From a virus, in IMG/VR virus record IMGVR_UViG_3300021085_000154, positions 1 to 28,644 of that record: a DNA stretch of 28,644 bases; one strand, 5' to 3'. Position 1 is the first letter of the stretch. The number at the start of each line of letters is the position of its first letter. Both the position numbers and the translations under genes were made by a program. The notes under the pieces were generated by a model, which was given only the letters and a program-made list of their open reading frames with translations, made no database searches and was not told the origin of the DNA. This document shows positions 22,068-28,644 of the stretch, piece by piece.

Positions 22068-25000
22068 ATGCCTATCAATAACGAAACAAGAATACAAAAA
22101 ACTGATACGATTGAGCAACTTCGTCAAAAAACGAATGATGTATCATTACATTTAGGAGATAATGGATTAATTGATTCCAGGATACTTGATAAAACTGAAT
22201 CAATTACAGCGACTGCTGGTCAAACATTATTTACTTCTAATACATTAAGGTTTGAATTAAAGCCTGGTGAATCATTAGATGATACAGCAAATAGTGAGTC
22301 ATTAAGTATTGGAGTTGTTAAGGTATTTAAAAATGGTACAGAATTATCACAAGGATTAGGCGCTGCACAATTTGAAGTTCCTAACTTTGTTTTAAAGGTT
22401 GTTTGTACAGGAAGTTTTACTGTCCCTACAGAATTTATAGAAGGTGCAACACTAACACAATCAGGTGGATTTAGTGGTGTATTATTATCTGCAAGTACAA
22501 CAGAATTAAGATTTAAATCAGTAAACAGCACATCATTTAATACTGGACAATTAGTTCAATTAAGTGGTAATTCAACCAAAAGAATATTGGCCGCAAATTT
22601 ATCTAGTGCAGCAGTCCAGGATAGTTCATTCGGAAATATTATTCGATTAAATACTGCAGCATCAAATGGCAATGTTATTAAAATTGTTTCAACAAATATA
22701 GTAGATGCAATTAATGAAGTTCAAGATGATGTTGGTGATATATTATCATTAGGCAGTAACGATAAATCAGATATTGTTACAGCAATCAATGAATTAGAAA
22801 CAGGTTTAAGAGGAACAAGAAGTGGTTTGGTTGCAGCAGATTTATCTGGAATGTCGGCCGATAATGTTGTTTCAGCCATATTAGAACACGAAGGCGATAT
22901 TGGTAATATGACCTTAACGGGTTTATCAGCAACTGATTTATCAGCCGGTTTAAGAGAAGTTATTAATGAGGTTGGTGCTGTAGGTAATTTAATAACTGCA
23001 CATCAATCAACAACTGTTGGTGCGATTAATGAAGTGCATAACGATGCATTGGCTAGTGTTAAATTAACTTCTAGTGGAACACAAACATTAAATTCTAATT
23101 TCACCATGACAAGTGGAAATACATTAACATTTCCAAATAATACAACACTTGATATAAGAAATGGTTCATTATTAGTAGGTGCTGGTGGTACAGAACTTCA
23201 ATTTGATACAGCATTCCTCGCACTTACAGCAAACGATAGTAGTAATTCAGCTGTAAACCAATTAGGTCTTGAGGTTAAAAGAGCAGGTTCTGCCTTTGCA
23301 AGATTACAATGGAACGAAACATTAGTAGGAAGTACTCCATCTAAAGCATGGCAGTTAATTGGAATGAACGATGCTGGTGCAGCAAATACTGCAGGTATAG
23401 TTACATTTTATAACGCAAAGGATTTAATTGCCGGTTCAGAAACTGGTATCAGTGTAGTGTGGGACGATTCAAATGATAGGTTTGATTTTGCCCTAACAGC
23501 AGACCCAACAATTTCATTGGCTGGTGACTTATCAGGTTCAGTCGCACTTACAAATTTAGCAACAGACACATTTACTCTTACAGCAACAATTGGTTCAGGT
23601 GTTGTAGAAAATAGTATGTTGGCTGGAAGTATTGCTGCTTCTAAATTAGCAGGTTCAATACCAAATAATAAATTATCAAATCCAGGATTTGAATTAGATG
23701 CAAGTTCTGGTACAACAAATACAGTTAACCTTGGTGAAACATTATCTATATTAGGTACATCATCAGAAATAGATACTGCAGTAAGTGGAAACACTGTCAC
23801 AATTGGTTTACCAAATGATGTAACAATCGGAAATGATTTAACAGTTACAGGTGACCTATTAGTTCAAGGTGATACAGTTACCTTAAACACTTCAACACTT
23901 GCTGTTGAAGATACATTGGTATTAATGGGAACAGCAGGTGCAGAACCAAGTACAGGTGGATTTGGTTTAGAAACAAGAGCATTTTCAGGACAAACAAATC
24001 CTCATGCAAATGCCGCTGCAGGAGTAACAGGTACTCACTCACTAGTGTATAACTTTGCAACTGACCAATGGGAAGCTGATGGTAATCAAATATTGGATAC
24101 TGTTAACAGTTTAATTACCCCACAGGTAAAAACAAATAATGCTTCATCAACTGGTGGTGGAAATATAGGACCTACTGATTTAACCGGTACAAGAGATTTG
24201 GATTTTATTGCCGGTTCTGGTTTAAGTATTGCTGGTGCAGTAAATAGTACAGATATTGATATTACATTTACGAATACGGATAAAGGTTCTGATGTAATGG
24301 TATTTAAAAATGTAGCCTCACAATCAGGGACAGCAGTTGCAGATACAAATACAGACACACTTACAATTAATGGTGGTAATGATTTATCAACATCAGTAAG
24401 TGGAGACACATTAACAATTCAACATGATAATTCAGGCGTAACAGCGGCCTCATACGGAAGTCGATTTGTTGTACCAACTATTACGGTAGACGCAAGAGGT
24501 CATATTACATCTGCTTCAAATAATGCAGCAATATCACTTTCAGCTCTTGGATATTCTGGTGCAACTAATGCTGATAATTATGGTTCATTTAGTATTAAAG
24601 CAAATTCAGGTTCTGCAGAAGCGATTGGTTCAGGTGAAACAATAACCTTTACTGATAGTGGTGGAGCAACTGTAACTAGAAGTGGTAATACAATTGATAT
24701 ATCTTCTGCTAATACAATCACTCAAATAAGAGAAGATTCAGGTTCATATAGAACTGGTAATATTACTTTACAAAGTGGTTCAAATGTAGCTATTAGTGAA
24801 CCATCAACTGGAACATTTAGAATTGATTCAACAGATACTAATACAACTAACTTTAATGTTAATGCAAATGGTGGTACTAACGAAAACATATCTGCTGGTG
24901 AAACAATAAGGTTTAATGGTGGTGGTGCAACTTCTGTAACTAGACAAGGTCAAACATTTACAATAAGCTCAACCGATAGTAATGATAACACAACTAATTT

Positions 25001-25676
25001 TAATATTAATGCGAATGGTGGTGCTAATGAAAACATATCAGCTGGTGAAACAATAAGGTTTAATGGTGGTGGTGCAACTACTGTATCAAGAAGTGGAAAC
25101 ACATTTACAATTAGTTCAACAGACACTAATACAAATACTCAATTAACTGATGCACAAGTAAGAAGTAAATTCTCTGCTGGTAGTAATGTATCAATATCAA
25201 GTAGTGGTGTAATATCTGCAACAGATACAAATACCACATATACTAGAGCAAGTTTTATTAACCAATCAGTTAATAATAATGATAATGTTCACTTTGAAGG
25301 TTTAATGGTTGGACAAACATCAGGTTCCACAGCAAATACCATACGTTGTACTGGTGATGTTGTTGCTTTCTATTCATCAGATGAAAGATTAAAAGATAAT
25401 ATTACACCAATCGAAAATTCATTAGAAAAAGTAGGACAATTAAAAGGTTATGAATTTGATTGGAATGATAATCAAGAAGTTTACGAAGGACATGATGTTG
25501 GTGTTATTGCTCAAGAAGTTGAGAAGGTAGTACCAGAGATTGTGGAAACAAGAGAACACGATGGCTATAAAGCTGTTAAATATGAAAAATTAGTTCCTCT
25601 CTTAATAAATGCAGTTAATGAATTAAAGGCTGAAATTGAGGAATTAAAAATTATAAATAAAGATATAGAGAAATAA
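22068..25676 (+). CDS. Tail fibre protein with C-terminal S74 intramolecular chaperone
   Basis: The N-terminus (ETRIQKTDTIEQLRQKTNDV and LHLGDNG) is typical of virion-attached fibre proteins of marine T4-like phages. The shaft is repetitive and Thr/Asn/Gly-rich, with paired strands such as DLTVTGDLLVQGDTVTLNTS (about residues 590-610) and two 49-residue tandem repeats (24844-25137). The end, from about residue 1102, is an S74 peptidase-type intramolecular chaperone: YSSDERLKDN, GYEFDWN, GHDVGVIAQEVEKVVPE, YKAVKYEKLVPLLINAVNEL and a coiled-coil tail. In this family the C-terminal domain assists trimer folding and cuts itself off at a conserved Ser, here Ser1104 next to the Asp, with Lys1109 close by. 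It probably makes the main host-contacting fibre. Confidence 0.85.
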   Translation: MPINNETRIQKTDTIEQLRQKTNDVSLHLGDNGLIDSRILDKTESITATAGQTLFTSNTLRFELKPGESLDDTANSESLSIGVVKVFKNGTELSQGLGAAQFEVPNFVLKVVCTGSFTVPTEFIEGATLTQSGGFSGVLLSASTTELRFKSVNSTSFNTGQLVQLSGNSTKRILAANLSSAAVQDSSFGNIIRLNTAASNGNVIKIVSTNIVDAINEVQDDVGDILSLGSNDKSDIVTAINELETGLRGTRSGLVAADLSGMSADNVVSAILEHEGDIGNMTLTGLSATDLSAGLREVINEVGAVGNLITAHQSTTVGAINEVHNDALASVKLTSSGTQTLNSNFTMTSGNTLTFPNNTTLDIRNGSLLVGAGGTELQFDTAFLALTANDSSNSAVNQLGLEVKRAGSAFARLQWNETLVGSTPSKAWQLIGMNDAGAANTAGIVTFYNAKDLIAGSETGISVVWDDSNDRFDFALTADPTISLAGDLSGSVALTNLATDTFTLTATIGSGVVENSMLAGSIAASKLAGSIPNNKLSNPGFELDASSGTTNTVNLGETLSILGTSSEIDTAVSGNTVTIGLPNDVTIGNDLTVTGDLLVQGDTVTLNTSTLAVEDTLVLMGTAGAEPSTGGFGLETRAFSGQTNPHANAAAGVTGTHSLVYNFATDQWEADGNQILDTVNSLITPQVKTNNASSTGGGNIGPTDLTGTRDLDFIAGSGLSIAGAVNSTDIDITFTNTDKGSDVMVFKNVASQSGTAVADTNTDTLTINGGNDLSTSVSGDTLTIQHDNSGVTAASYGSRFVVPTITVDARGHITSASNNAAISLSALGYSGATNADNYGSFSIKANSGSAEAIGSGETITFTDSGGATVTRSGNTIDISSANTITQIREDSGSYRTGNITLQSGSNVAISEPSTGTFRIDSTDTNTTNFNVNANGGTNENISAGETIRFNGGGATSVTRQGQTFTISSTDSNDNTTNFNINANGGANENISAGETIRFNGGGATTVSRSGNTFTISSTDTNTNTQLTDAQVRSKFSAGSNVSISSSGVISATDTNTTYTRASFINQSVNNNDNVHFEGLMVGQTSGSTANTIRCTGDVVAFYSSDERLKDNITPIENSLEKVGQLKGYEFDWNDNQEVYEGHDVGVIAQEVEKVVPEIVETREHDGYKAVKYEKLVPLLINAVNELKAEIEELKIINKDIEK
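24844..25137 (+). repeat. Two tandem 147-bp repeats in the fibre gene
   Basis: Two adjacent 49-codon units start with NFN(V/I)NANGG and share NENISAGETIRFNGGGAT, then a variable TRQGQ or SRSGN segment, then TFTISSTD. Unit starts lie at 24844 and 24991. DNA identity is high in the core and lower at the ends. A degenerate related unit (GSGETITFTDSGGATVTRSG) precedes them near 24630. Confidence 0.8.
25652..25659 (+). promoter_or_regulatory. Candidate late promoter octamer at the fibre gene end
   Basis: TATAAATA lies in the last codons of the fibre gene, 18 bases before the next ATG. A start near 25665 would give a short leader. It could be chance within AT-rich coding sequence. Confidence 0.4.
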
Positions 25677-27815: not shown

Positions 27816-28644
27816 TTGGCAAGAAATACTAACATTAAATTAAGGCGTTCTGCTACCGCAGGCGCAATTCCAACTACAAGTAATTTAGACCTAGGTGAGC
27901 TAGCGCTTAATACCTACGACGGTAAATTATATATGAAAACTACCGAGGGTAGTTTGGACAATGTTATTCAAGTTGGCTCCGCAACAGATTCATATTATAA
28001 GGTAAGAAAAAGTCAAACACTTACTTTTACAGTTACAGTTGCTTCAAAAACAACAGACCATATACATTATAATTCAGGTTCAAGTAGTGGTTATCAAATC
28101 GATGGAGTTGAATCACCACATTTTAATTTAATTCCAGGTAATACATATAGATTTGACCAATCTGATTCATCGAACTCTGGTCACCCTTTAAGATTTTATT
28201 ACGATTCAGGTAAAACAACAGCATATACTGCAGGTGTAACTACAAACGGAACACCAGGTTCATCAGGTGCATATACACAAATAGTTCCTACAGTCGATAC
28301 CCCAATGGTATTACATTACCAATGTTCAGCACATGGTTTAATGGGAAACCAAGTAAGTTTTAAAACAAGAAATTTAACAGGATTTGATACTGATGATTTA
28401 TCAGAAGGTTCATCAAATTTATATTTTACAAACGCAAGGGCCAGAGGAGCTGTATCAGTTACTGATGCTGGTGGAGATGGTTCTCTTGCTTATAATAGTT
28501 CAACAGGTGTTATAACCTATACAGGGCCAAGTGCATCGGAAGTAAGAGCTCATTTTTCTGCAGGAACTGGTATAGGAATATCAGGTGGTACAATATCCAC
28601 ATCAATAACACAATATACAGATGCTCTTGCAAGGGCAGCAATAT
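27816..28644 (+). CDS. Fibre protein with cupredoxin-like segment (partial, TTG start)
   Basis: The start is TTG: GAGGAG lies 6 bases upstream and no suitable ATG is near. About 276 residues are visible and the frame is open at the window end. Residues 1-60 form a fibre attachment type N-terminus (NTNIKLRRSATAGAIPTTSN, DLGELALNTYDGKLYMKTTE). Residues about 66-181 look like a cupredoxin: FNLIPGNTYRFDQSDSSNSG, HPLRFYYDSG, a GTPGSSGAYTQI strand, then VLHYQCSAHGLMG. His123, Cys170, His173 and Met176 give a full set of type 1 copper ligands with C-x2-H-x2-M spacing, as in amicyanin. After it, SEGSSNLYFTNARARGAVSV and GPSASEVRAHFSAGTGI are fibre repeats of marine phages. Copper binding is an inference. 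Confidence 0.8.
   Translation, partial: MARNTNIKLRRSATAGAIPTTSNLDLGELALNTYDGKLYMKTTEGSLDNVIQVGSATDSYYKVRKSQTLTFTVTVASKTTDHIHYNSGSSSGYQIDGVESPHFNLIPGNTYRFDQSDSSNSGHPLRFYYDSGKTTAYTAGVTTNGTPGSSGAYTQIVPTVDTPMVLHYQCSAHGLMGNQVSFKTRNLTGFDTDDLSEGSSNLYFTNARARGAVSVTDAGGDGSLAYNSSTGVITYTGPSASEVRAHFSAGTGIGISGGTISTSITQYTDALARAAI

Follow-up and report, generated by a model that had tools for sequence, protein, structure and literature searches.

Type 1 (blue copper) sites are known from cellular electron carriers and oxidases, and we found no report of one in a virion; within the open full-text literature, subscription papers and InterPro lying outside the scope, no paper was found that describes phage virions with a cupredoxin domain. 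Fold and site are already known, and it is the setting in a virion which is new as far as we can tell. With the plastocyanin/azurin cupredoxins (PF00127) the phage domain described here shares four ligands, which stay in register along the full length of a profile alignment, and the fold class as assigned by Foldseek. It differs from plastocyanin in being embedded in a virion protein, whereas plastocyanin-type proteins are free secreted electron carriers, and in its H-x2-M loop, which is shorter than that of plastocyanin (x4). With amicyanin, whose partner is methylamine dehydrogenase, it has the C-x2-H-x2-M ligand loop in common, and amicyanin is among the best fold matches of one of our two models (L170). 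There is no amicyanin family match, however, the first ligand His of the phage domain usually precedes a Pro, and the domain lies inside a tail-fibre open reading frame instead of forming a separate soluble periplasmic protein; we class it as a cupredoxin and not as an amicyanin. Rusticyanin and the cupredoxin domains of copper nitrite reductases and two-domain laccases provide the top fold matches, with the nitrite reductase 9cck as the best profile match. The ligand loop of rusticyanin is longer, and in contrast to copper nitrite reductases and laccases the phage domain has no catalytic copper sites and is not part of a multidomain enzyme. In ephrins and some phytocyanin-like nodulins the cupredoxin fold is kept and the copper is lost.

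Metal-binding proteins encoded by phages have been described in other settings. The plastocyanin gene petE of cyanophages is an auxiliary metabolic gene of marine T4-like phages (PMC3037559); both are phage-encoded copper proteins, and one contig carries a petE-type gene together with the virion domain, but the petE product is a free metabolic protein in the infected cell while the domain reported here is part of the virion. The nearest published idea is the Ferrojan or Trojan horse hypothesis, according to which iron is held by HxH motifs in T4-type tail fibres, including those of marine phages (PMC11705849), the shared feature being a metal, in our case a predicted one, held in a phage tail fibre. 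The YHYH domain is phage tail-associated with predicted zinc bound by a His triad and an Asp (PMC7824862); no match to the YHYH family was listed for the window copy or its relatives.

The tail-fibre reading frame and its predicted cupredoxin domain

The DNA analysed here, referred to as the window, comprises the 28,644 bases of an IMG/VR virus record with a T4-type tail and baseplate operon, and the nearest relatives of its gp6 are those of Pelagibacter phage HTVC008M and OM43 phage Melnitz (~40% identity). Its last open reading frame begins with a TTG start at 27816 preceded by a GAGGAG Shine-Dalgarno sequence and matches PHROG tail fibre families (best E 3e-48). The features and the predicted copper ligands are as follows.

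27816..28643, plus strand: tail-fibre gene with T4 gp37-type N-terminus, 276 aa, reading frame truncated by the contig end (TTG start, PHROG)
27816..27992, plus strand: N-terminal segment homologous to long tail fibre distal subunits, virion-side end (tblastn)
27993..28370, plus strand: predicted cupredoxin domain, residues 60-185 (AlphaFold2, Foldseek, profile search, hhalign)
28182..28184, plus strand: His123, predicted copper ligand 1, immediately before strand 66-69 of the domain (invariant in alignment A2)
28323..28325, plus strand: Cys170, predicted copper ligand 2, end of strand 106-111 (invariant in A2)
28332..28334, plus strand: His173, predicted copper ligand 3 (invariant in A2)
28341..28343, plus strand: Met176, predicted axial copper ligand (invariant in A2)
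28371..28643, plus strand: fibre repeat region of GFDTDDLSEGSSNLYFTNARA type, running beyond the contig end (similar to what follows the domain in relatives)

The initial annotation had placed a cupredoxin-like domain inside a tail fibre, and this placement is borne out on both flanks. Residues 1-56 match the gp37-type N-terminus of coliphage distal subunits (44.6% identity, 575 phage records by tblastn), meeting one criterion for a T4-type long tail fibre distal subunit (gp37), a homologous N-terminus, whereas any C-terminal receptor-binding tip would lie beyond the contig end, and 3' of the domain follows a DLSEGSSNLYFTNARA-type fibre repeat with a counterpart in relatives L001-L006 and in phage Melnitz. 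The His-Cys-His-Met set read earlier from the sequence was recovered exactly (28182, 28323, 28332 and 28341), as was the amicyanin-like C-x2-H-x2-M spacing, and Cys170 is the only cysteine among the 276 residues. A second fibre protein of the window (1202 aa, 22068-25676) ends in a Peptidase_S74 intramolecular chaperone domain.

Structure prediction had been named in advance as a test of the assignment and did not refute it. Supplied with an alignment of 49 sequences, AlphaFold2 modelled the window domain as a confident beta-sandwich (pLDDT 93.9, pTM 0.87), for which all eight Foldseek matches in the PDB with E <0.001 are rusticyanin, followed by two-domain laccases and factor V. The second model, of the gp9-type copy L170, which is 27% identical to the window domain, was built from an alignment excluding rows from annotated phage records; it reached a pLDDT of 91.5, and its top-50 PDB list consists of cupredoxins only, including nitrite reductase, rusticyanin, amicyanin, pseudoazurin, laccases and the copper domain of cytochrome oxidase. 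TM-scores against solved cupredoxins are modest (~0.5), and PDB searches found no solved structure of the phage domain family itself. The model strands FNL 44-46, TYRFD 51-55 and LRFY 66-69 (domain numbering) stand in the cupredoxin order that the initial annotation had assumed for them. According to DSSP of the window model, H64 precedes strand E66-69, C111 ends strand E106-111, and H114 and M117 precede strand E119-123 (domain numbering), which is the canonical ligand topology of cupredoxins with the first His before a mid strand, the Cys at the end of the penultimate strand and the second His and the Met in the loop before the last strand. Three criteria of the cupredoxin superfamily, namely fold, conserved H-C-H-M set and ligand topology, are fulfilled, fold and topology by model. 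Sequence comparison and modelling together establish residues 60-185 as a true cupredoxin domain with a complete predicted type 1 ligand set; the distances between the ligands were not measured and there are no metal-binding data.

Short proteins from Pithovirus and Marseillevirus relatives, named beta-sandwich proteins in BFVD (A0A481Z6J5, A0A481YY19, A0A481YWX9, A0A481Z7Q7), resemble the model with TM ~0.73.

At the level of sequence, the relation to cellular cupredoxins becomes visible only in part. Searches of Pfam and the PDB with the window copy alone gave no cupredoxin match, and NCBIfam gave nothing relevant; weak matches of single-sequence searches to SpaA_3, SETD7 and an At5g54830-like domain were set aside. 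The profile of alignment A2, comprising 66 copies with less than ~70% mutual identity, some 23% identical to the window copy, matched the copper nitrite reductase 9cck best (E 4.8e-5) and plastocyanins with a best E of 0.0013 and all four ligands in register. Pfam PF00127 (Copper-bind) is matched by 13 of the 66 copies (best E 2.5e-5); scanned singly, none of ten relatives reaches its curated cut-off (21.2 bits), and the window copy does not match it at all. The profile comparison with cupredoxins held for cyanobacterial plastocyanins, which hhalign aligned over the full length with the ligands in register (E 2.4e-6, probability 88.9%), and failed for azurin-like proteins (from relatives of a Verrucomicrobia MAG), for which nothing was found. 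Masking the four ligand columns reduces the plastocyanin signal to the level of shuffled sequences, and for this reason sequence alone supports the site and not descent. The case for common descent with cellular cupredoxins, against a convergent site on a similar fold, rests mainly on the fold match of the predicted models, which speaks for descent.

The same searches bear on the possibility that the metal held by the site in vivo is not copper but zinc or iron, with copper being merely adventitious. Type 1 sites do take Zn, Co or Hg in vitro and no evidence presented here addresses metal identity, but the profile and fold searches led to copper proteins without a single zinc family among the matches, and an invariant Met ligand combined with a Cys thiolate favours copper, so that we consider another metal improbable.

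Several copies (among them L336, L346 and L354) show weak matches to PF25489, the At5g54830-like domain of a plant protein (best E 0.0005); possibly this plant domain, too, is a cupredoxin that has gone unrecognised.

Conservation of the four ligands

The 372 loci collected contain 512 domain copies, which fall into 75 clusters at 70% identity. H-C-H-M is kept in 66 of these clusters and the first ligand position is His in 70; this is the unbiased count, because alignment A2 drew on clusters having the full ligand set. A2 contains exactly four invariant columns, and these are the four ligands. When positions are ranked by conservation, Met176, His173, Tyr168 and Cys170 are at the top and His123 is sixth, and across copies the positions between and around the ligands vary. 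The C-x2-H-x2-M spacing is present in 437 of 439 copies, and the only natural replacement among 440 otherwise complete copies is a single Met to Leu exchange; type 1 sites tolerate Leu in place of the axial Met. Homologues that freely replace Cys170, His173 or Met176 would have spoken against the assignment and were not found. In four further scans of viral contigs the queries ended before the C-x2-H-x2-M motif, and in two of the four the search pattern did not contain any ligand.

Three other readings of the motif were discarded. A chance occurrence of C-x2-H-x2-M was rejected on its conservation across copies, a catalytic Cys-His pair on the invariant Met and the one Cys per domain, and a disulfide on the same two observations, the disulfide being excluded since the ligand Cys is the sole cysteine of the domain in 64 of 66 clusters.

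The nine clusters lacking the full set comprise two truncated by contig ends, five without the first His, the Cys and the Met together, and two which keep the first His and lack the C-terminal part, one of the latter being an ambiguous partial alignment. Copy 1 of gp7 and gp10-like copies lack the C-H-M part and usually the first His as well. Loss of the site tends to be all-or-none as a set, and these losses are not independent events since they are confined to few gp7/gp10 lineages, for which reason we attach no importance to a P value. Prochlorococcus-type phages (L084, which is P-HM2 gp7, and L174-L201) have gp7 proteins with tandem cupredoxin copies, of which the first has lost the copper site (K/Q-D-H) and the next is intact.

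This pattern allows weighing the simplest alternative, namely that no metal is bound and the domain is an ordinary Ig-like beta-sandwich decoration whose four residues are kept for packing. The persistence of site-less copies in gp7/gp10-like proteins implies that the fold can exist without the site, and in BFVD some relatives bear the name immunoglobulin domain or beta-sandwich protein. Yet H, C, H and M are the sole invariant residues while core positions vary, the site tends toward loss as a set, and the retention of a lone free Cys in an extracellular protein would otherwise be hard to explain; we judge a metal-free decoration to be highly improbable. Binding of a metal, most likely copper, is inferred from the strict conservation and from the established chemistry of type 1 copper and has not been shown. 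We consider it very probable, by inference and without measurement, that each copy binds one copper ion via His123, Cys170, His173 and Met176.

Occurrence in phage tail and baseplate proteins

The CSAHxxMG-like segments that the initial annotation had mentioned for structural proteins of other marine phages proved to be widespread: tblastn retrieved 231 phage records when the window domain served as query and 362 when a divergent copy did, and hundreds of IMG/VR contigs carry the domain. Among the matches listed for the divergent copy, most are cyanomyovirus gp9, annotated as 'baseplate wedge tail fiber connector'. The carriers are phages of cyanobacteria, pelagiphages and an OM43 methylophage, and the carrier proteins include tail fibres (Melnitz, Mosig, P-SSM2), gp7 (P-HM2), gp9 (S-RIM2), the P-SSM2 tail spike, tail proteins of podovirus P-GSP1 and pelagiphage Baldr, and gp10-like baseplate proteins. 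The domain follows an N-terminal segment, lies in the middle of the protein or forms its C-terminus, at times in tandem; in the window fibre and in Melnitz it sits between the fibre N-terminus and the shaft. It is a mobile module carried by virion tail and baseplate proteins. A cellular donor was not found, as a scan of cellular genome contigs gave four loci, and some of these at least are evidently located on misbinned phage contigs.

One contig of 189 kb (C3 of G002; L092, L375, L377, L380 and L382), filed as a Prochlorococcus single-cell genome, looks like a cyanophage and contains a free plastocyanin-type gene (110907-111155) in addition to four virion cupredoxin copies.

The placement of the copies bears on the idea that fibre-held copper is recognised by copper-uptake or copper-binding surface proteins of the host, as a copper version of the Trojan horse. 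Several metal-loaded modules per virion would be expected if T4 stoichiometry applies, but type 1 copper is largely buried and hard to offer to a transporter. In the window fibre and in Melnitz, moreover, the module adjoins the virion-side N-terminus and not the tip, and other copies reside in the baseplate proteins gp7 and gp9. We regard such recognition as improbable, even though an analogous hypothesis has been published for iron at HxH motifs (PMC11705849).

Possible roles of a copper-bound module

Synthesis and assembly of the fibre would take place in the host cytosol, which contains almost no free copper, and it is therefore natural to assume that the site is loaded at lysis or later: it may take up copper once lysis has set the virion free in the presence of dissolved copper and of copper proteins from the host. 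Copper strongly raises the stability of cupredoxins. The bound ion would be expected to shield the lone thiol from oxidation and, at one end of the beta-sandwich, to clamp the loops, and the locked module may then serve as a rigid, protease- and heat-resistant accessory domain, i.e. as a spacer and weak surface adhesin, acting on the baseplate and close to the end of the fibre that faces the virion. The variable surroundings of the ligands and the near-virion position favour such a structural or adhesion module. In particular, the variability between and around the ligands disfavours a fixed electron-transfer partner, and the location near the virion-side fibre end and in baseplate proteins disfavours a role as tip receptor; we counted the insertion at many positions in unrelated virion proteins for structure or adhesion as well. 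Our inference of a copper-locked structural or adhesion module, being neither a specific receptor-binding tip nor an electron carrier with a fixed partner, remains tentative and somewhat short of an even chance. For the explanation as a whole, i.e. a cupredoxin module which is copper-bound and has this copper-locked role, we see the chances as evenly balanced in the absence of metal-binding data. As a counterpoint, the near-absolute retention of a redox-type site exceeds the needs of a purely structural role.

This retention leads to the alternative of a redox-active centre, in which type 1 copper takes an electron at the host surface, from outer-membrane or periplasmic reductants or, in cyanobacteria, by light-driven reduction, and by switching between Cu(I) and Cu(II) controls adsorption or the firing of the baseplate. 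The ligands, the axial Met among them, are those of electron-transfer cupredoxins and strictly kept, gp9, the T4-type connector of baseplate and long tail fibre, carries the domain in most cyanomyovirus records listed and would be a plausible place for a trigger, and light-dependent adsorption of cyanophages is a reported effect. However, type 1 sites barely change structure on reduction and are therefore poor mechanical triggers, the surroundings of the exposed ligand His are variable and mostly small or polar without a conserved hydrophobic docking patch, and the presence of the domain in SAR11 and OM43 phages means that a link to photosynthesis cannot be general. We consider both the switch and the suggested electron sources unlikely, without dismissing them. 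In its broadest form, most cyanomyoviruses and many aquatic phages would be copper metalloparticles with tens of redox-active type 1 centres on the baseplate and fibres of each virion, and these centres would contribute to adsorption, whether by switching in response to redox state or light or by making use of the host's handling of copper; this is equally a minority expectation, which, if true, would tie phage infection to the copper chemistry of the ocean.

It is probable that many virus particles in the ocean contain copper, the purpose of which is untested. Confirmation would mean that a very abundant class of ocean viruses has protein-bound copper on its tails, with bearing on phage survival in seawater, attachment and trace-metal chemistry. 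For annotation, a domain so far concealed by the labels 'tail fiber' or 'hypothetical protein' becomes recognisable.

The window domain also contains a His82-Ile-His84 sequence (28059-28067); this HxH is not conserved across domain copies. His82 is retained in a long class of the domain (K-T-S-x-H) and missing from the short class, and it possibly represents a second site or a packing residue.
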